DNA of 52,026 bases from positions 1 to 52,026 of the forward strand of contig JAQUVJ010000005.1 in NCBI GenBank assembly GCA_028693395.1. The letters are read 5' to 3'. A model generated the notes under the pieces. That model worked only from the letters and a program-made list of their open reading frames with translations. It was not told the DNA's origin and did not search any database. The position numbers and the translations under genes were made by a program. Below, in pieces: positions 4,234 to 51,747 of the stretch; the first letter of the stretch is position 1; the number at the start of each line of letters is the position of its first letter. This DNA is from Candidatus Nanoarchaeia archaeon. Its GTDB lineage: Archaea; Nanobdellota; Nanobdellia; Woesearchaeales; JAQUVJ01.

Positions 4234-5739
4234 ATGTTTAAAAAAAGTGTATCACCATTAATTGCAACTGTTTTGTTAATTGCATTTACTGTTGCAATTG
4301 GATCTGTTGTTATGAATTGGGGTACTTCCTATATAAAAGAAGAACAAGAATCTGCAACAAGTACTTCTGATGTTAGATTAACATGTGCAACAAATGTTAA
4401 TTTAAAGATTATGAAAATAGATAATATGAAGGATTATTGTTATGATAATGATTCAGAAAATGTAACAATTAGTGTTAGATTATCAAAAGGTTCTGAAAAA
4501 TTAGAAGGAATTAGAGTAAATATAATTTCAAATGGTGAAAGTCAAACTTTAGATTATAATAAAGAGATATCTTATTTAAATTTTCAAATTAATTTAGGAG
4601 GATTTAATAAAAGTTTATTAAATGAAAATAACTTAATTGAATATGTAGAATTAGTTCCTTATATAGATAATAATGGAGCTAATTATTTTTGTTCTGGTGC
4701 TAGTTTAGAATTAAGTAATTTTGATAAATGTGAACATGAAATAAGTGTTAATTATATTCCTGAAATACCTGATGATTTTGATAATAATGAAAGTTTTGAA
4801 GATCCTGAAAATGAAACTCAACCGGTTTTAGAGTATGAAGATTATTATTTTGTTTCAGTATGGGATACAAGTAAAACAAGTACAGGTTCATCATCTTCAA
4901 ATCAAATAAAATTACCTTTGGAGTCAAGTGGAAATTATAGTTTTACAGTTGATTGGGGCGATGATACTCAAAGTTATATAACGACATATAATAATCTTAA
5001 TGTAACACATACATATTTTCAATCGGGCGAGTATGAAATAAAAATTAATGGAACTATAGTAGGATTTAGATTTAATAATAATGGAGATAGATTAAAAATT
5101 AAAGATATAAAACAATGGGGAGATTTAAGATTAGGTAATGGTGGTTCATATTTTTATGGAACTTCAAACTTAAATATAACTGCAACTGATATTTTAAATC
5201 TAACAGGAACAAATGATTTACATAGAATGTTTTTTAATTCAGGGATTTCAATAGTATCAAATATTGATAAATGGGATACAAGCAATGTTACAAACATGAG
5301 TTTATTATTTTATAATGCAATTTTTTTTAATAGTAATATTAGTAGCTGGGATACAAGTAAAGTAACAAATATGAGTTCTTTATTTTCAGGTGCAAAATCA
5401 TTTAATAGTAATATAAATGATTGGAATTTAGGAAGTGTTGTTGATATTAAATCAATGTTTTATCAAGCAGAAGTTTTTAACCAACCATTGAATAAATGGA
5501 ATACAAGTAATGTTAAAGATATGAATTCTTTATTTTCTGGTGCAAAATTGTTTAATAATAATATAAATGATTGGGATGTAAGAAATGTTGTTGATATGAG
5601 ATCAATGTTTTATCAAGCTGAAGTTTTTAATCAACCATTAAATAAATGGAATACAAGTAGTTTAGAAAATATGACTTCTATGTTTTATATGGCAAAAAGA
5701 TTTAATCAATCTATAAATAATTTTGATGTTAGTAAAGTT
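4234..5739 (+). repeat. 1,506-bp 5' coding repeat, copy 1 (twin at 7604-9109)
   Basis: The first 502 codons of this gene and of the next one encode the same protein in the ORF track, and the DNA lines I compared look identical, wobble positions included. Homology starts about 43 bases before the ATG. It stops abruptly inside the seventh BspA repeat, at 'agtaaagtt' (5739 and 9109). The offset is 3,370 bases. Confidence 0.9.
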
Positions 5740-7554
5740 AGAAGTATGGTTTATGTTTTTTATTATGCTGAAGATTTTAATCAACCATTAGATAATTGGG
5801 ATTTTAGTAAAGTTGAAGATGTTTGGACAATGTTTGGTGAAACAAAGAATTTTAATCAACCAATAGGTATGTGGAATACAAGTAGTTTAAAAAATATGAG
5901 ATCTTTGTTTTATTATGCTAAAGCATTTAATCAATCAATAAATGATTGGGATACAAGTAATGTTGAAAGTATGCATCAAGTTTTTCTAGGTCTTGGAAGT
6001 TTTAATCAACCATTAGATAAATGGAATACTAGTAAAGTTAAAACAATGTATGGAATGTTTCATATGGCATCTTCATTTAATCAACCAATAGAAATGTGGG
6101 ATACAAGTAATGTTGAGGATATGGAAGGAATGTTTAATGGAGCTACATCTTTTAATCAATCATTAAACAATTGGAACACGAGTAAGGTTGAATTAATGTC
6201 AGATATGTTTTGGGGAGCATCTTCATTTAATCAACCAATAGGTAGTTGGGATACAAGTAATGTAATAAGTATGAGTTATATGTTTTATAGTAATAATTAT
6301 TTTAATCAGAATATAAGTTCATGGAATACGAGTAGTCTTAAATATACTAGTTATATGTTTTATCGTTGTTATCATTTTAATTATTCATTAAATGATTGGG
6401 ATGTAAGTAATGTAGAAAATATGAATAATATGTTTCGATCTGCGAGTAGATTTAATCATCCATTAGATAAATGGAATATTAGTAAAGTAACAAATGTTCA
6501 AAGTCTTTTTGCAGGTGCTAATTCTTTTAATCAAGATATTAGTATGTGGGATGTTAGTAGAATTAAAAATATGAATTCTATGTTTTATTATGCATCTTCT
6601 TTTAATTATTCACTAAATGATTGGAATGTTAGTAATGTTGAAAGTATGTCTCAAATGTTTAATGCAGCTCGTTCTTTTAATCAACCATTAGACAAGTGGG
6701 ATGTAAGTAATGTAAAAAACATGTCTGAAATGTTTCGTGATGCAAGAGATTTTAATCAACCAATAGGAATGTGGAATGTAAGTAATGTTACTGATATGAG
6801 TGATATGTTTATGGGAATATTTGAAACAGTTATATTTAATCAAGATATAAATGACTGGGATGTTTCAAATGTTAAATATATGGATTCAATGTTTAATGAT
6901 TCTATTGAATTTAATCAACCATTGGATAAATGGGATGTAAGTAATGTAGAAAATATGAATTCAATGTTCCATAATGCAAGAAAATTTAATCAAAATATAA
7001 GTATGTGGAATGTAAGTAAAGTAAAAAATATGTTTTATATGTTTAGAAGTGCTTATGAATTTAATCAATCATTAAATGATTGGGATATTAGTAATGTTCA
7101 AAATATAGTAGGAATGTTTGCTTCAACTTATAGTTTTAATCAACCATTGGATAAATGGAATATAAGTCATATTACAAATATCTCATCTTTGTTTAGTGGA
7201 GCAAAAGCATATAATCAATCATTGAATATGTGGGATGTAAGTAATATAGTTGATATGAGTTCAGTGTTTTATGGTGCTTATAACTATTCTCAAGCATTAA
7301 ATGATTGGGATGTTTCAAATGTTAAATATATGCAAAATATGTTTTATAGGGCATCATCTTTTAATCAACCAATAGGTAATTGGAATGTTAGTAATGTTGA
7401 AGGTATGAATTATATGTTTTATTATGCATCATCTTTTAATCAAAATATAAGTAATTGGTGTGTAACAAAAATTCCAACTCCACCAACAAGTTTTTCAACA
7501 TTCTCTCCTTTACAATCTGATTATAGACCAGATTGGGGATCATGTCCTAATTAA
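4234..7554 (+). CDS. Pilin-like N-terminus plus ~30 BspA/DUF285 repeats, surface protein
   Basis: This is a 1,106-residue predicted cell-surface protein. Residues 1-30 look like an archaeal type IV pilin class III signal: short basic start 'MFKKS' then a long hydrophobic helix ending 'NWGTSY'. Residues ~30-165 form a pilin-like beta domain with cysteines. An acidic linker follows (~180-200), then a PKD-like strand domain (~205-290, 'FTVDWGDDTQ', 'THTYFQSGEYEIKING'). From ~315 to the end there are about 30 copies of a 25-residue BspA/DUF285 leucine-rich-like repeat (consensus FNQPLDKWDVSNVKNMSxMF), closed by a Cys-containing cap 'WGSCPN'. BspA repeats mediate adhesion in other organisms; host or surface attachment is an inference here. 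Almost every repeat carries N-x-S/T sequons. A paralogue follows 49 bases downstream. Confidence 0.9.
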   Translation: MFKKSVSPLIATVLLIAFTVAIGSVVMNWGTSYIKEEQESATSTSDVRLTCATNVNLKIMKIDNMKDYCYDNDSENVTISVRLSKGSEKLEGIRVNIISNGESQTLDYNKEISYLNFQINLGGFNKSLLNENNLIEYVELVPYIDNNGANYFCSGASLELSNFDKCEHEISVNYIPEIPDDFDNNESFEDPENETQPVLEYEDYYFVSVWDTSKTSTGSSSSNQIKLPLESSGNYSFTVDWGDDTQSYITTYNNLNVTHTYFQSGEYEIKINGTIVGFRFNNNGDRLKIKDIKQWGDLRLGNGGSYFYGTSNLNITATDILNLTGTNDLHRMFFNSGISIVSNIDKWDTSNVTNMSLLFYNAIFFNSNISSWDTSKVTNMSSLFSGAKSFNSNINDWNLGSVVDIKSMFYQAEVFNQPLNKWNTSNVKDMNSLFSGAKLFNNNINDWDVRNVVDMRSMFYQAEVFNQPLNKWNTSSLENMTSMFYMAKRFNQSINNFDVSKVRSMVYVFYYAEDFNQPLDNWDFSKVEDVWTMFGETKNFNQPIGMWNTSSLKNMRSLFYYAKAFNQSINDWDTSNVESMHQVFLGLGSFNQPLDKWNTSKVKTMYGMFHMASSFNQPIEMWDTSNVEDMEGMFNGATSFNQSLNNWNTSKVELMSDMFWGASSFNQPIGSWDTSNVISMSYMFYSNNYFNQNISSWNTSSLKYTSYMFYRCYHFNYSLNDWDVSNVENMNNMFRSASRFNHPLDKWNISKVTNVQSLFAGANSFNQDISMWDVSRIKNMNSMFYYASSFNYSLNDWNVSNVESMSQMFNAARSFNQPLDKWDVSNVKNMSEMFRDARDFNQPIGMWNVSNVTDMSDMFMGIFETVIFNQDINDWDVSNVKYMDSMFNDSIEFNQPLDKWDVSNVENMNSMFHNARKFNQNISMWNVSKVKNMFYMFRSAYEFNQSLNDWDISNVQNIVGMFASTYSFNQPLDKWNISHITNISSLFSGAKAYNQSLNMWDVSNIVDMSSVFYGAYNYSQALNDWDVSNVKYMQNMFYRASSFNQPIGNWNVSNVEGMNYMFYYASSFNQNISNWCVTKIPTPPTSFSTFSPLQSDYRPDWGSCPN

Positions 7555-7571
7555 ATTATTTTTTGCAAAAT

Positions 7572-7581
7572 TTTAAATATA
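7572..7581 (+). promoter_or_regulatory. TATA box of second BspA-like surface gene
   Basis: 'tttaaatata' is ~28 bases before the ATG at 7604, duplicated from the first paralogue. The 3-base change downstream ('aactta' here, 'aatcca' there) falls between the box and the transcription start. Confidence 0.6.
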
Positions 7582-7603
7582 TTAACTTATTTATTTTATT
7601 AAG

Positions 7604-9109
7604 ATGTTTAAAAAAAGTGTATCACCATTAATTGCAACTGTTTTGTTAATTGCATTTACTGTTGCAATTGGATCTGTTGTTATGAATTGGGGTACTTCCT
7701 ATATAAAAGAAGAACAAGAATCTGCAACAAGTACTTCTGATGTTAGATTAACATGTGCAACAAATGTTAATTTAAAGATTATGAAAATAGATAATATGAA
7801 GGATTATTGTTATGATAATGATTCAGAAAATGTAACAATTAGTGTTAGATTATCAAAAGGTTCTGAAAAATTAGAAGGAATTAGAGTAAATATAATTTCA
7901 AATGGTGAAAGTCAAACTTTAGATTATAATAAAGAGATATCTTATTTAAATTTTCAAATTAATTTAGGAGGATTTAATAAAAGTTTATTAAATGAAAATA
8001 ACTTAATTGAATATGTAGAATTAGTTCCTTATATAGATAATAATGGAGCTAATTATTTTTGTTCTGGTGCTAGTTTAGAATTAAGTAATTTTGATAAATG
8101 TGAACATGAAATAAGTGTTAATTATATTCCTGAAATACCTGATGATTTTGATAATAATGAAAGTTTTGAAGATCCTGAAAATGAAACTCAACCGGTTTTA
8201 GAGTATGAAGATTATTATTTTGTTTCAGTATGGGATACAAGTAAAACAAGTACAGGTTCATCATCTTCAAATCAAATAAAATTACCTTTGGAGTCAAGTG
8301 GAAATTATAGTTTTACAGTTGATTGGGGCGATGATACTCAAAGTTATATAACGACATATAATAATCTTAATGTAACACATACATATTTTCAATCGGGCGA
8401 GTATGAAATAAAAATTAATGGAACTATAGTAGGATTTAGATTTAATAATAATGGAGATAGATTAAAAATTAAAGATATAAAACAATGGGGAGATTTAAGA
8501 TTAGGTAATGGTGGTTCATATTTTTATGGAACTTCAAACTTAAATATAACTGCAACTGATATTTTAAATCTAACAGGAACAAATGATTTACATAGAATGT
8601 TTTTTAATTCAGGGATTTCAATAGTATCAAATATTGATAAATGGGATACAAGCAATGTTACAAACATGAGTTTATTATTTTATAATGCAATTTTTTTTAA
8701 TAGTAATATTAGTAGCTGGGATACAAGTAAAGTAACAAATATGAGTTCTTTATTTTCAGGTGCAAAATCATTTAATAGTAATATAAATGATTGGAATTTA
8801 GGAAGTGTTGTTGATATTAAATCAATGTTTTATCAAGCAGAAGTTTTTAACCAACCATTGAATAAATGGAATACAAGTAATGTTAAAGATATGAATTCTT
8901 TATTTTCTGGTGCAAAATTGTTTAATAATAATATAAATGATTGGGATGTAAGAAATGTTGTTGATATGAGATCAATGTTTTATCAAGCTGAAGTTTTTAA
9001 TCAACCATTAAATAAATGGAATACAAGTAGTTTAGAAAATATGACTTCTATGTTTTATATGGCAAAAAGATTTAATCAATCTATAAATAATTTTGATGTT
9101 AGTAAAGTT
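7604..9109 (+). repeat. 1,506-bp 5' coding repeat, copy 2 (twin at 4234-5739)
   Basis: This is the second copy of the shared 5' segment of the two BspA-type genes. See copy 1 for limits. The direct orientation and 3.4-kb spacing would allow deletion or chimera formation by homologous recombination. Confidence 0.9.
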
Positions 9110-10393
9110 GTTTATATGTCTTCTATTTTTAATTATGCTAATGATTTTAATCAACCATTAGATAATTGGAATACTAGTAATGTAACTTCTATGTATGGAA
9201 TGTTTTGGGGAGCATCTTCTTTTAATCAACCAATAGATAACTGGGATGTAAGTAAAGTTACAACTATGCGTTATATGTTTTATCAAGCAGAAGTTTTTAA
9301 TCAACCATTAGATAATTGGAATGTTAATAATGTTGAAGATATGCACGGATTGTTTAATTCAGCTCGTTTATTTAATCAATCTTTAAATGATTGGAATACT
9401 AGTAGTGTAATTTATATGTCTAGAATGTTTTGGAGTGCATATTCTTTTAATCAACCATTAGATAATTGGAATACAAGTAAAGTTGTAGATATGCAATTGA
9501 TGTTTTGGAGTGCATCTTCATTTAATCAACCATTAGAAAGTTGGGATGTAAGTAATGTAGAATATATGAATTATATGTTTTCAAGTGCTAATGCTTTTAA
9601 TCAATCTTTAAATAATTGGAATACTAGTAATGTTAAATCAATGAATAATATGTTTAGTTTTTCAAATTACAATAATAATATAAGTAATTTGGATACAAGT
9701 AATGTTGAAGATATGAGTCGTATGTTTTATAATATTCAATATTTTAATCAAAATATAAGTTCATGGAATACAACTAAAGTAAAAGATATGAGTACTATGT
9801 TTTATCGTTGTTATTATTTTAATTATTCATTAAATGATTGGGATGTAAGTAATGTAATAAAAATGAATGATATGTTTGAATCTGCAATTAGATTTAATCA
9901 ACCATTAGATAAATGGGATGTAAGTAATGTTGAAGAAATGGGAGGAATGTTCTATAGTGCAGGTTTATTTAATCAAAATATAAGTATGTGGAATGTAAGT
10001 AAAGTAAAAAATATGAATTCTATGTTTTATTATGCATCTTCTTTTAATTATTCATTAAATGAATGGAATGTAAGTAATGTAGAAAATATGATACAAACAT
10101 TTAGAGCAGCTAAATCTTTTAATCAACCATTAAATAAATGGGATGTTAGTAAAGTTAAGAATATGTCAAAAATGTTTTATGATGCAAGTGATTTTAATCA
10201 ACCATTAGATAAATGGAATGTTAGTAATGTTGTTGATATGAGTGAAATGTTTGGATTTATGTTTTATTCAGTAGAATTTAATCAAAATATAACTAATTGG
10301 TGCGTAAATAAAATATCTATTGAACCACTAAATTTTGCAACTTCTCACTTTGAAATTCATAATAGACCAATCTGGGGATCATGTCCTAATTAA
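7604..10393 (+). CDS. Second pilin-like/BspA repeat surface protein, tandem paralogue
   Basis: This 929-residue paralogue has the same plan as the gene at 4234: class III signal-like helix, pilin-like domain, acidic linker, PKD-like domain, BspA/DUF285 repeats and a Cys cap ('WGSCPN'). I count about 23 repeats against 30; seven 25-residue repeats account for the length difference. The first ~502 residues are identical and the remaining repeats differ, though later blocks ('SMWNVSKVKNMNSMFYYASS') are again near-identical and out of register. This fits recent duplication or gene conversion of the 5' part with reshuffled repeats. Role is inferred to be adhesion or surface display. Confidence 0.9.
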   Translation: MFKKSVSPLIATVLLIAFTVAIGSVVMNWGTSYIKEEQESATSTSDVRLTCATNVNLKIMKIDNMKDYCYDNDSENVTISVRLSKGSEKLEGIRVNIISNGESQTLDYNKEISYLNFQINLGGFNKSLLNENNLIEYVELVPYIDNNGANYFCSGASLELSNFDKCEHEISVNYIPEIPDDFDNNESFEDPENETQPVLEYEDYYFVSVWDTSKTSTGSSSSNQIKLPLESSGNYSFTVDWGDDTQSYITTYNNLNVTHTYFQSGEYEIKINGTIVGFRFNNNGDRLKIKDIKQWGDLRLGNGGSYFYGTSNLNITATDILNLTGTNDLHRMFFNSGISIVSNIDKWDTSNVTNMSLLFYNAIFFNSNISSWDTSKVTNMSSLFSGAKSFNSNINDWNLGSVVDIKSMFYQAEVFNQPLNKWNTSNVKDMNSLFSGAKLFNNNINDWDVRNVVDMRSMFYQAEVFNQPLNKWNTSSLENMTSMFYMAKRFNQSINNFDVSKVVYMSSIFNYANDFNQPLDNWNTSNVTSMYGMFWGASSFNQPIDNWDVSKVTTMRYMFYQAEVFNQPLDNWNVNNVEDMHGLFNSARLFNQSLNDWNTSSVIYMSRMFWSAYSFNQPLDNWNTSKVVDMQLMFWSASSFNQPLESWDVSNVEYMNYMFSSANAFNQSLNNWNTSNVKSMNNMFSFSNYNNNISNLDTSNVEDMSRMFYNIQYFNQNISSWNTTKVKDMSTMFYRCYYFNYSLNDWDVSNVIKMNDMFESAIRFNQPLDKWDVSNVEEMGGMFYSAGLFNQNISMWNVSKVKNMNSMFYYASSFNYSLNEWNVSNVENMIQTFRAAKSFNQPLNKWDVSKVKNMSKMFYDASDFNQPLDKWNVSNVVDMSEMFGFMFYSVEFNQNITNWCVNKISIEPLNFATSHFEIHNRPIWGSCPN

Positions 10394-13413: not shown

Positions 13414-15126
13414 ATGTATTTATTAAACTATTATATTGATGAAATATCAAAAGAAATTATTAAACAATTTCCTAACATAAAATCTAATGTTGAAGAAATT
13501 AGTTCTTTGATTGATACTCCAAAAAATAATTATGGAGATTTAGCAATACCTGTTTTTAAGTTTGCAAAAGAATTAAATAAAAATCCTAATGATTTATCAA
13601 TAGAATTTCAAGAAAAAATAAATTTGGATTTTTGTAAAACACAAGCAGTTGGACCATTTGTTAATTTTTTTTTTGAAAAAGAAAAGATTTCAAATGAATT
13701 ATTAAAGAAAGTTGATTTTAAATTTGAAAATAAAAATAAAAGAATTATAATAGAATTTCCAAGTCCAAATACAAATAAACCTCTTCATATAGGTCATCTA
13801 AGAAATATGCTTTTAGGAAATAGTGTAGCAAACGTATTAGAAGAAAATGGATATGAAGTTAAGAGATTGGATTTAATAAATGATAGAGGAGTTCATATAT
13901 GTAAATCAATGCTTGCATATCAAAAATGGGGTAATAACAAAACTCCAGAAAGTGAAAATAAAAAAAGTGATCATTTTGTAGGAGATTTTTATGTTAAATA
14001 TGCAAAAGAATCAGATGAAGATCCAAAATTAGAAGAAGAAGTAAATCAAATGTTGATTGATTGGGAAAATCAAAATAAAGAAGTTATTGATTTATGGGAA
14101 AAAATGAATAATTGGGCAATAAATGGAATGAATGAAACTTTTAAAAGATTTAATATAAAATTTGATAAAGAATATAGAGAATCTCAAATATACAAATTTG
14201 GAAAAGAAATCATAATTGATGCTTACGAAAAAGAAATTGCATATAAAGATGAATCTGGGGCTTTAATTATTAATTTAGATGAATATAAATTACCAGAAAA
14301 AGTATTGATAAGATCAAATGGGACAAGTATTTATGTTACACAAGATATTTTTTTATGTAAAAAGAAATTTGAAGATTTTGATAATGATAGTAAATTAGAA
14401 AAATCAATTTATTGCATAGGAAATGAACAAGAAACATATCTGCAACAATTATTTGCAATTCTTGAAAAATTATCTATCGATAAAGATAAAAAATGTTATC
14501 ATTTGAGTTATGGAATGGTAGAACTTCCTGATGGAAATATGAAATCAAGACAAGGAAATGTAATAGATACAGATAATTTAATTGAAGAAATAAAAGAAAT
14601 TGAAAAAAAAGAATTATTGCAAAGATATAGTGATTTATCAAGTGAAGAATTAGATAAAAGATCTGAAACAATTTCGATGTCTGCAATTAGGTTTTTTATG
14701 CTAAAATTTGATGCAAAGAAAAACATAGTTTTTGATAAAAATGAATCTTTGAGATTTGATGGTGAAACTGGTCCTTATGCACAATATACTTATTCAAGAA
14801 TAAGAAGTATAATTAAGAAATCAGAAATCAAAAATATAGATAAAATTATTTTTAAAATAACAACTGAAAATGATTTTGATTTAATAAAGAAATTATTAGA
14901 ATATACTGATGTTATAATTAGAACATCAAAAGATTATAATGTTGCAAGAGTTGCACATTATATTATAGAATTATCTCAAATGATAAATGAATATTATACA
15001 AAAAATAAAGTAATAGGAGAAGAAAAAAATACAATGGAATCAAGAATCTTTTTGTTGAATAAATCTATAAGTATTTTAAAAAGAGCTTTAAAAGTTTTAG
15101 ATATCGATGTTTTAGATGTTATGTGA
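13414..15126 (+). CDS. argS: Arginyl-tRNA synthetase
   Basis: This class I synthetase charges tRNA-Arg. Residues 1-90 are the ArgRS N-terminal (Add1) domain that binds the tRNA elbow. The catalytic domain carries 'SPNTNKPLHIGHLRN' with HIGH at 128-131. The second signature is the ArgRS variant 'GNMKSRQGNVI' (~370), which lacks a canonical KMSKS as is usual in this family. 'FDGETGPYAQYTYSRI' opens the DALR anticodon-binding domain, which runs to the C-terminus. The 570-residue length is normal. It has its own TATA box. Downstream is an AT-rich gap with two GTTTCATGAAAC-type palindromes. Confidence 0.97.
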   Translation: MYLLNYYIDEISKEIIKQFPNIKSNVEEISSLIDTPKNNYGDLAIPVFKFAKELNKNPNDLSIEFQEKINLDFCKTQAVGPFVNFFFEKEKISNELLKKVDFKFENKNKRIIIEFPSPNTNKPLHIGHLRNMLLGNSVANVLEENGYEVKRLDLINDRGVHICKSMLAYQKWGNNKTPESENKKSDHFVGDFYVKYAKESDEDPKLEEEVNQMLIDWENQNKEVIDLWEKMNNWAINGMNETFKRFNIKFDKEYRESQIYKFGKEIIIDAYEKEIAYKDESGALIINLDEYKLPEKVLIRSNGTSIYVTQDIFLCKKKFEDFDNDSKLEKSIYCIGNEQETYLQQLFAILEKLSIDKDKKCYHLSYGMVELPDGNMKSRQGNVIDTDNLIEEIKEIEKKELLQRYSDLSSEELDKRSETISMSAIRFFMLKFDAKKNIVFDKNESLRFDGETGPYAQYTYSRIRSIIKKSEIKNIDKIIFKITTENDFDLIKKLLEYTDVIIRTSKDYNVARVAHYIIELSQMINEYYTKNKVIGEEKNTMESRIFLLNKSISILKRALKVLDIDVLDVM

Positions 15127-15385
15127 TTTTTCTTTTTATAAATTATTATTTTGATTTTTTATTTTATTTGTAAATTATTTTCTTTTTATTTTTAAATTTT
15201 TATTTTTTCATATTTTTTATAACAAATATTAATTTAAATTTTTTATCTTTTAATTAATTTTAATGTTTTTTTTAAGAAGTAAAGTTTCATGAAACAATAA
15301 TTATAATAAATTATAATAATTATAATAAAAAACACTATAAAAAAAGTTACCAAACATAATTTTATTAATAATATTTCATGAAACA
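15127..15385. other. AT-rich gap between convergent argS and dCTP deaminase
   Basis: This 259-base gap separates two convergent 3' ends. It starts with T-rich tracts that could terminate both genes, then holds a 12-bp palindrome, a run of 'taataat' motifs and a second palindrome. I see no ORF and no recognisable RNA gene. Confidence 0.6.
15284..15295. repeat. Palindrome GTTTCATGAAAC, locus 1 copy 1
   Basis: A perfect 12-bp palindrome between the convergent argS and dCTP deaminase genes. Its partner is centred 89 bases away. The same 12-mer occurs at 37051, 51341 and 51389. Confidence 0.8.
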
Positions 15386-36772: not shown

Positions 36773-36987
36773 TTTTTCATTATTTTTTTTCATTAATTTT
36801 TTTTCATTAATTTTTTTTCATTAATTTTTTTTCATTAAATATTTTTTATTAATATCTCTTTTTTGATTTATATTTATTTTTTAGTTTTTTATATTTATTT
36901 TTTATGTTTTTATATATTTTTTAAAGTTATAATTTTACATTAATATATAATAATATGATTTTATAGATAATATATTTTTTGCACAAC

Positions 36988-36999
36988 ATTTCATGAAAC
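36988..36999. repeat. Palindrome ATTTCATGAAAC, locus 2 copy 1
   Basis: The core TTTCATGAAA is a perfect palindrome, followed by a long A run as in three other copies. It lies between convergent gene ends, 63 bases centre to centre from its partner. Confidence 0.75.
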
Positions 37000-37050: not shown

Positions 37051-37062
37051 GTTTCATGAAAC
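37051..37062. repeat. Palindrome GTTTCATGAAAC, locus 2 copy 2
   Basis: A perfect 12-bp palindrome followed by AAAAA, 61 bases before the 3' end of the U32 gene. It is identical to the copies at 15284, 51341 and 51389. Confidence 0.8.
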
Positions 37063-49190: not shown

Positions 49191-51338
49191 ATGGAATATT
49201 ATAATTCTATGGATCAAGATTTTTATTCATTAGATAATTTTAATAAAGGTTTTAATTATTCAAATTCTGAATTAATACAATATGGAAATTTAGGTATATC
49301 AACAAATGAAAGTCCTCAATTAGGAGGTAATTATGCTTCTCAACTTAGTGTTGGTGGAAGACTAAGAATGGGAGATAAACACATTGAACTTAATTTAGGA
49401 GGATATGGAAATGAGCCTGGTGGAGCAGCAACTTATGGAAAAGATGCAAGACAAGCTATTAGAGAAATTTCTAGATCAAATAAAGTTGATTACACAGTTC
49501 ATGCACCATCAAATATAAAAGGAGTGAATGGATATGATAAAACAGGTTATAATATTTCTCAAGAAAAAGAAATAGAAAAAGTAATAAAAAATACAATAGA
49601 TTTTGCTGCTGATATTGGTTCTACGGGTGCAATTGTTTTACATTCAGGAGAAGATTCAAGAGATATAAATCAAATTCCAAATATTCAAGGAAAGATAGAT
49701 GGAAAAATTCCATATAAATTTTCTAATTATTTTTCTGATAAGCAAACAGTTGTAGATCAAATTGTTGATAGAAGGACAGGAAGTTTTATTGGAGAAAATG
49801 GAATTAAAGCTGATGATAAAATCATTTTACCAAAATTTCAAACAGATGAAAATGGAAATATTTTACAATTTACAAAAAATGGATTAGAAAAATCAAATAT
49901 AAAAACTTTTGATTTAGAATCAAGAGATGAGAAAGGAAATTTAGTTCATAAAAAAATACCAATAATTGATTTTACAGACGTTGCAAATTTTTCTAATTTA
50001 TCAAATGCATCAATAGAATCAAGTAATGGTGACATGCAAACTCAAGAATTAACATATTTTGATGTAGAAAATTTTACAAATCAATATAACAAAATAAATA
50101 ATAAAAATCATAGTGCAACAGAAATCTTTGCTAAATTAAAATATAAAGATTTGATTAATAATTCTATAGATGATTATAATTATAGATATAATGAATATAA
50201 TAATTTAAGAAAAAGATGGGATAGATTGATGGAAGCAAAAAAAGCATATGAATCTTTTTATCCAAACTTAGATGAAAAAAATAAAAAAGTTTTTGATATT
50301 TTGCAAAATGATTTTAGAGAAGTTCTCCCATCACAATCAAGAAATCCAATTGAATTCATTGAAGAAAAAGAAAAAGAAATAAGATATCAAATGAATAAGA
50401 TAAAAGATGAAGCAATTAAGAGTAAAGATAATTTTGAAAATTATAGAGAAATATTGAATAATATAGATTCAGCAAATAAATATGCAAGAGAAAAAAGTAT
50501 TGATAAATATGCTGAATTTGGTTTGTATACAATGCAAAGATCGAAGAATTCTGAATATATGGAAAATAAAGAAAATCCAAATCATCTATTTATTGCACTT
50601 GAAAACATATTTCCTGAGTGGGGTTATGGATCTCATCCTGATGAATTAATTGATTTAGTAGAGAAATCAAGAAATAAGATGGTTGAAAAGATAACAAAAA
50701 AAGAAGTAGAAAAATATGATGATAAAGGTAATAAAATAGTTGAACAAAACCCTTTTTATAATCCTAATATAACAAAAAAAGATGCAGAAAAATTATCGCA
50801 AGAATACATAAAAGCTACTTTAGATTTTCAACATCTTGGTATGTGGAAAAAATATTTTGAACCTATTTATTTAGAAGATAAAAAAAGATTAGAAACAAAA
50901 GAAGAAACTGAAAATAGATTTAATCAATGGTATTTAGAACAAATAAAGAAATTAGAAAAATCAAAAGTAATAGGTCATTTACACGTTGCAGATTCTATGG
51001 ATGAATCTCATCAACATCTACCAGCAGGTCAAGGAGTTTTGCCAATAAAAACAGCAATAAATTATTTAATAAAAAATGGATATGATACAAGTAAATATAA
51101 AATAGTTTCAGAAGGATTTCAAGAAGATTCTTCTTTTGGACAAAGTAGAGGAATAACAACTGCTTATAGATATTTTAATCCAAATGCAAGTGTAACAGAT
51201 GTTACAAGTTTAAATTTTATGAATGTTTCATCTTCAGTTGAAAATTATAGTGGTTCTTCTAATTATGTTACACCAAATTATATGGCTCCATTAAAAAAGG
51301 AAAGTTGGAGTGGTTGGTTCGATTTTAGAGGATTATAA
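49191..51338 (+). CDS. AP endonuclease/sugar isomerase-like TIM-barrel protein with large insert
   Basis: The 715-residue protein has TIM-barrel blocks typical of the AP endonuclease 2/xylose isomerase-like fold, split by long inserts. The early strands are 'VDYTVHAPSN' and 'GAIVLHSGED'; the late ones are 'LFIALENIFPE', 'ATLDFQHLGMW' and 'VIGHLHVADSMDESHQH', then 'IVSEGFQED'. The His, Glu and Asp in these blocks match the positions of the metal ligands in this fold. A Gly/Asn/Ser-rich N-terminus (~60 residues) and a charged helical insert (~270-440) are extra. It has no signal peptide although it starts directly after a membrane-protein gene. The substrate is unknown; a sugar or sugar phosphate is plausible. 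Confidence 0.72.
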   Translation: MEYYNSMDQDFYSLDNFNKGFNYSNSELIQYGNLGISTNESPQLGGNYASQLSVGGRLRMGDKHIELNLGGYGNEPGGAATYGKDARQAIREISRSNKVDYTVHAPSNIKGVNGYDKTGYNISQEKEIEKVIKNTIDFAADIGSTGAIVLHSGEDSRDINQIPNIQGKIDGKIPYKFSNYFSDKQTVVDQIVDRRTGSFIGENGIKADDKIILPKFQTDENGNILQFTKNGLEKSNIKTFDLESRDEKGNLVHKKIPIIDFTDVANFSNLSNASIESSNGDMQTQELTYFDVENFTNQYNKINNKNHSATEIFAKLKYKDLINNSIDDYNYRYNEYNNLRKRWDRLMEAKKAYESFYPNLDEKNKKVFDILQNDFREVLPSQSRNPIEFIEEKEKEIRYQMNKIKDEAIKSKDNFENYREILNNIDSANKYAREKSIDKYAEFGLYTMQRSKNSEYMENKENPNHLFIALENIFPEWGYGSHPDELIDLVEKSRNKMVEKITKKEVEKYDDKGNKIVEQNPFYNPNITKKDAEKLSQEYIKATLDFQHLGMWKKYFEPIYLEDKKRLETKEETENRFNQWYLEQIKKLEKSKVIGHLHVADSMDESHQHLPAGQGVLPIKTAINYLIKNGYDTSKYKIVSEGFQEDSSFGQSRGITTAYRYFNPNASVTDVTSLNFMNVSSSVENYSGSSNYVTPNYMAPLKKESWSGWFDFRGL

Positions 51339-51340
51339 AA

Positions 51341-51352
51341 GTTTCATGAAAC
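51341..51352. repeat. Palindrome GTTTCATGAAAC, locus 3 copy 1
   Basis: A perfect 12-bp palindrome followed by AAAAA, two bases after the stop of the TIM-barrel gene and 48 bases centre to centre from copy 2. Confidence 0.8.
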
Positions 51353-51372
51353 AAAAATAGATGTTCAAATTA

Positions 51373-51384
51373 AAATATTTATAA
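51373..51384 (+). promoter_or_regulatory. TATA box of DUF192 gene, between two palindromes
   Basis: 'aaatatttataa' lies exactly between the two palindromes. Transcription would start near 51405, just after copy 2, so protein bound to copy 2 would cover the initiation region. Confidence 0.5.
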
Positions 51385-51388
51385 AAAT

Positions 51389-51400
51389 GTTTCATGAAAC
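51389..51400. repeat. Palindrome GTTTCATGAAAC, locus 3 copy 2
   Basis: A perfect 12-bp palindrome followed by AAAAA, between the TATA box and the likely start of the DUF192 gene. The ORF-track ATG at 51394 is the centre of this palindrome. Confidence 0.8.
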
Positions 51401-51417: not shown

Positions 51418-51747
51418 ATGAATAACAATATTAATAAAATAAAAACTAAACGATTATCAAAGATTTATCAACAAATAATTGGTTTTATGTTTAATTTTAA
51501 CAAAAATCAGATGATGATATTTATTTTCAAGAAAAATGAAAATTTTTCTATAACAAATTTATTTGTTTTTTTTTCGTTAGATTTGTTTTTTTTAAATGAA
51601 GAAAAAAAAATTGTAGATATAAAAAGAAATTTTAAACCTTTTTCAATAATATTTAAACCAAAAGAAAAATACAGATATTTAATTGAAATTCCAAGTTCTT
51701 TATTTTTATTAAATGATGTAAAAATCGACGATGAGTTGAAAATATAA
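51418..51747 (+). CDS. DUF192 family protein
   Basis: From ATG 51418 the product is 109 residues, a single DUF192 domain. The family blocks are visible: 'GFMFNFNKN' (the GLMFR-like start), 'MMIFIF', 'NLFVFFSLDLFFLNEEKKIVDIKRNFKPFS' spread over the centre, and 'YLIEIPSSLF' near the end. DUF192 proteins are small beta-barrels of unknown function, widespread in archaea. The ORF-track ATG at 51394 lies inside a palindrome and upstream of the predicted transcription start, so 51418 with 'GGTAAT' upstream is preferred. Confidence 0.8.
   Translation: MNNNINKIKTKRLSKIYQQIIGFMFNFNKNQMMIFIFKKNENFSITNLFVFFSLDLFFLNEEKKIVDIKRNFKPFSIIFKPKEKYRYLIEIPSSLFLLNDVKIDDELKI

Follow-up and report, generated by a model that had tools for sequence, protein, structure and literature searches.

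A paired 12-bp palindrome near gene ends in a Woesearchaeales genome, a possible site of a dimeric DNA-binding protein

The window, by which we mean the whole 52,026-nucleotide stretch analysed here, is one contig (C16; JAQUVJ010000005.1) of the Candidatus Nanoarchaeia archaeon assembly GCA_028693395.1, a 1.12-Mb genome of ~22% GC in 48 unordered contigs that is ~88% complete, with roughly 12% missing. Genes were called by ORF length alone. Towards its end the window carries a 715-aa gene followed by a DUF192 gene (Table 1), and its final bases look like the 5′ end of an archaeal 16S rRNA gene. Two exact copies of the palindrome GTTTCATGAAAC lie between these two genes, 48 bp apart and with the TATA-like TTTATAAA between them, just as the first-pass annotation had described. 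From its sequence, the TATA-like box is the probable promoter of the DUF192 gene, and an ATG within the second palindrome copy could serve as an alternative DUF192 start.

Table 1. Palindrome copies and associated features; positions are those of the window unless another stretch is named.
Feature	Position	Strand	Remarks
Palindrome GTTTCATGAAAC	15284..15295	.	Exact; in the ArgS / dCTP deaminase convergent gap
Variant ATTTCATGAAAC	15373..15384	.	1 bp past the stop codon of the minus-strand dCTP deaminase gene; partner 89 bp away
Variant ATTTCATGAAAC	36988..36999	.	In the TatD DNase / peptidase U32 convergent gap
Palindrome GTTTCATGAAAC	37051..37062	.	Exact; 60 bp past the U32 stop codon; partner 63 bp away
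715-aa gene	49191..51338	+	Sugar isomerase-like TIM barrel match (PF01261); stop codon abuts a site
Palindrome GTTTCATGAAAC	51341..51352	.	Exact; begins 2 bp past the stop codon of the 715-aa gene
TATA-like TTTATAAA	51378..51385	+	Between the 51341 and 51389 copies; probable DUF192 promoter
Palindrome GTTTCATGAAAC	51389..51400	.	Exact; second copy of the pair, just downstream of the TATA-like box
DUF192 gene (PF02643)	51418..51747	+	Longer ORF begins at 51394
Candidate DNA-binding protein gene, 233 aa	L025 7232-7933	minus	Lysine-rich; possible C-terminal winged-helix stretch, weak hits at E ~0.05

Pairs of the same palindrome had been reported at two other loci of the window, and pairs are indeed present there, but one partner in each is the variant ATTTCATGAAAC, one mismatch away from GTTTCATGAAAC, leaving four of the six window copies exact; the partner at 36988 was correctly placed, while the other begins at 15373 and not at 15374. 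All six copies are intergenic, and the pairs are found where genes end, not around promoters. The pair said to flank the DUF192 promoter fits that description only in part, with the 51389 copy at the promoter and the 51341 copy directly behind the preceding gene. A run of AAAAA does follow four of the six window copies (36988, 37051, 51341 and 51389), but it follows none of the 11 other intergenic core sites read, and the A-run is therefore a local feature.

Several other features of the window were recorded. About six tandem 14-bp units of TTTTTCATTAATTT (36773-36853) stand right after the TatD stop codon, upstream of the paired palindromes. Two very large adjacent ORFs at 4234-10393 have nearly identical 75-bp (25-aa) tandem repeats in common, similar to surface repeats of the BspA/DUF285 type, and are a probable tandem duplication. 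In a search of GTDB 220, the best match of ArgS (13414-15126) was to a Nanoarchaeota MAG at 46% identity, with no relative above that value, the other six being to Spirochaetes, Cloacimonadota and Bacteroidales MAGs; this pattern of matches suggests inter-domain transfer. The only Rfam elements detected in the window and nine other stretches were tRNAs.

Words were counted across the genome with a genome search tool, taking expectations from Markov models of order 1-4 and the reversed word as control. The first-pass annotation had expected the palindrome to exceed its background, and it does so by a wide margin, with 11 exact copies against 0.10-0.16 expected and none of the reversed word, or ~70-110 times chance in this AT-rich genome. 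Nine of the 11 are intergenic and two fall within long ORFs, so that the absence of copies from genes holds for the window and not genome-wide; intergenic DNA makes up only ~14% of what was sampled. There are 37 copies of the 10-bp core TTTCATGAAA, against 14-21 by the Markov models and seven for the reversed control, which exaggerates the excess because the models alone already give 14-21. This excess is located in intergenic DNA (16 copies versus 0.7 expected in the stretches read, a site-biased sample). A single core match on a contig of 4.9 kb at 45% GC (L031, contig C44), which within a 22% GC genome is probably contamination or a foreign element, was excluded from the statistics.

The two half-sites, GTTTCA and TGAAAC, abut. 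When they were searched genome-wide with spacers of 0-8 bp, 11 of 13 occurrences were spacer-free and two had a non-zero spacer. Among the GTTTnnnnAAAC words in intergenic DNA the centre is CATG in nine of 11 and no other palindromic centre recurs, and thus the arms do not co-vary around a loop. The outermost base of the palindrome is G or A. Conservation drops off beyond the 12 bp, no flanking position exceeding 0.4 bits, and T at -1 and A at -3 are slightly favoured. No sequence common to pair members was seen beyond the core, and the interiors of the pairs are unrelated. Excess over background, a fixed half-site spacing and an invariant centre, the marks of a palindromic site bound by a dimer, are all found here; the invariant centre, the missing loop and the lack of arm co-variation fit a protein dimer bound to duplex DNA and speak against an RNA hairpin.

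The word is rare elsewhere. Exact GTTTCATGAAAC occurs 0-2 times per genome in 352 other genomes of the order, and RTTTCATGAAAC, counted on both strands, occurs 33 times here and seven times in the next best genome of a draw from the class that included 275 genomes outside the order. On these counts the element is lineage-restricted, the family being represented among the genomes compared by that of the window alone. Viral contigs with TGTTTCATGAAACA had one palindrome per stretch among the matches listed, and an exact text search for published use of the word returned no archaeal or relevant one among the matches listed.

To describe placement we used the 17 intergenic sites, counted by the 10-bp core. 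Five close pairs were found versus 0.44 expected, with a maximum of four in 5000 random placements. The pairing and the intergenic bias that the first-pass annotation had asked for were both borne out. The spacings are 48, 57, 63, 89 and 108 bp and have no helical phase in common. Convergent gaps, 11% of the intergenic space, hold eight of the 17 sites, and seven follow a stop codon by no more than 12 bp (1.5 expected from a background of 8.8%, p ~4e-4). No 10-mer is more over-represented than the core in the 60 bp that follow stop codons, where 7 of 211 flanks contain it, compared with 1 of 295 upstream flanks. At the ArgS/dCTP deaminase gap and a convergent gap on contig C31, one copy directly follows a stop codon, and the T-rich stretch downstream of that gene lies between the two copies. 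Several sites are unpaired and a few lie upstream of genes, the 51389 copy being the only one located at a promoter. Since the stretches read (those around sites and some others) were mostly picked for containing sites, and the placement and 3′-end tests were formulated after the sites had been seen, the p-values are guides only. One variant-site pair, 57 bp apart, lies where contig C47 ends (L033 4600-5612), in ~1 kb of very AT-rich DNA that seems to be non-coding and has no Rfam match.

The first-pass annotation had proposed two roles, a parS-like centromere and an operator. Bacterial parS has the half-sites GTTTCA and TGAAAC with a central CG between them, and the arms here are the same, with an outer T/A also common at the flanks. 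However, none of the 11 exact copies has the central CG, arms set apart by a spacer hardly occur, and the core parS word TTTCACGTGAAA is not found exactly anywhere in the genome (six matches with one mismatch, control three). ParB_N (PF02195) had no match in the ~88% complete genome (controls matched in 10 of 14), nor did the ParA-type ATPase domain AAA_31 (PF13614; controls matched in 14 of 14). We therefore reject parS/ParB, a reading that is largely refuted and that we regard as highly improbable, its remaining room being the ~12% of the genome that is missing. The genome encodes Cdc6 and an archaeal-type Kae1, and an Orc1/Cdc6 origin recognition box was also rejected, as no site adjoins cdc6: the 19 kb around it (C31:75.7 kb) held no match with fewer than two mismatches. 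A dimer of an ordinary transcription regulator, binding at promoters and using paired sites for cooperative repression, is a better candidate, given that paired copies of a perfect 12-bp palindrome are an arrangement typical of operators, that the TATA-like box and the expected DUF192 start site stand on either side of the 51389 copy, and that a variant site stands 206 bp upstream of the gene for the possible winged-helix protein of Table 1. Against this, only two of 17 sites precede a start codon by 60 bp or less, which is under background, and eight are in convergent gaps, which need no promoter. The flanking genes (ArgS, dCTP deaminase, TatD, U32, an ABCE1-like ATPase, Kae1/TsaD, an M24 peptidase and the NOG1 GTPase) are unrelated housekeeping genes that form no regulon, nor do the sites mark the promoters of a coherent gene set. 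A promoter regulon is thus unlikely, and with promoters avoided as well an operator is unsupported as the general role; we consider this reading unlikely overall, while an operator role for the 51389 copy alone is possible.

Two further explanations were weighed. REP and BIME palindromes are intergenic, lie near gene 3′ ends and are sometimes paired, all of which is true of the element here, and the lineage-restricted burst of copies and the GTTTCATGAAACAAAAA common to three window copies would also suit a short mobile or REP-like element, of which the palindrome would be the end or a remnant and whose spread to gene 3′ ends would need no bound host protein. The likeness between copies ends at the 12-bp core, however, with flanks of at most 0.4 bits per position, unrelated pair interiors and variable spacings, and no transposase was seen among the flanking genes scanned. 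The core is also much shorter than those of REP/BIME and has no loop and an invariant centre, and such a small dispersed repeat seems to us rather unlikely. A 3′ untranslated RNA element, in which a short hairpin shields the transcript end or helps termination, is less probable again. Seven sites do stand 1-10 bp past stop codons, some of them followed by T-rich stretches, and archaeal termination relies on U-tracts with aCPSF1 (PMC8716108), but the CATG centre is invariant with no compensatory arm changes and several sites are more than 90 bp from any stop codon. The hairpin would have a stem of 4 bp, and a hairpin is not strictly needed by archaeal terminators, which use U-tracts with aCPSF1/FttA (PMC8716108); the palindrome therefore has no known place in termination. 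Both signals are found at gene 3′ ends, but the U-tract signal does not require a palindrome and the element here is separate, beside such tracts.

The evidence at the level of the sites is strong, and we infer from it a putative protein and its function. The explanation we favour, and hold with about even confidence, is that GTTTCATGAAAC is a lineage-restricted, dispersed site of a putative dimeric DNA-binding protein that would act as a boundary where transcription units end or in chromosome organisation. This retains the dedicated protein and the paired, dispersed, intergenic sites predicted by the first-pass annotation, and leaves behind parS and a general operator. A homodimeric, sequence-specific protein particular to this lineage would recognise GTTTCATGAAAC with one dimer per site, and where two sites are separated by 48-108 bp as a pair, their two dimers would form a small bridged or looped complex. 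Less surely, the job would be general rather than gene-specific: the protein may mark where transcription units end, forming a boundary or roadblock between neighbours, above all convergent ones, and/or help to organise the chromosome in the manner of dispersed nucleoid or partition-protein sites. Counting against the favoured reading, ~20 sites are few for a chromosome-wide architectural role, the pair spacings lack a common helical phase, and some sites are single or upstream of genes. As for the binder, the 233-aa protein is a lead only; its gene is divergent from that of the ABCE1-like ATPase, with the variant site between the two, and it had no match among solved structures.

By analogy, the nearest functional parallel is given by the SegB sites of Sulfolobales. 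SegB, a ribbon-helix-helix protein linked to chromosome organisation, has a 13-bp palindrome at ~46 chromosomal sites, and some peaks contain several sites (PMC12284271). Like the element here, this is an archaeal palindromic site with tens of copies dispersed over one chromosome. The consensus is unrelated, however, being TCTAGA-S-TCTAGA (PMC12284271), whereas the core here is TTTCATGAAA and has no AGA-S-TCT. More than 80% of SegB sites are in genes and they cluster near segAB (PMC12284271), whereas the sites here are intergenic and 3′-biased, and the PF13614 search found no ATPase of the ParA type, of which SegA is one. It is conceivable, though on balance doubtful, that an undescribed archaeal chromosome-organising or transcription-boundary protein marks gene ends through paired GTTTCATGAAAC without ParB/ParA or SegA-type machinery. 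To our knowledge, no such gene-end-marking system is known in this lineage. For uncultured archaea with small genomes, little is known of chromosome organisation or of the way in which convergent transcripts are kept separate, and a short, exact and countable site at gene ends would provide bait for the protein and predicts where transcripts end.
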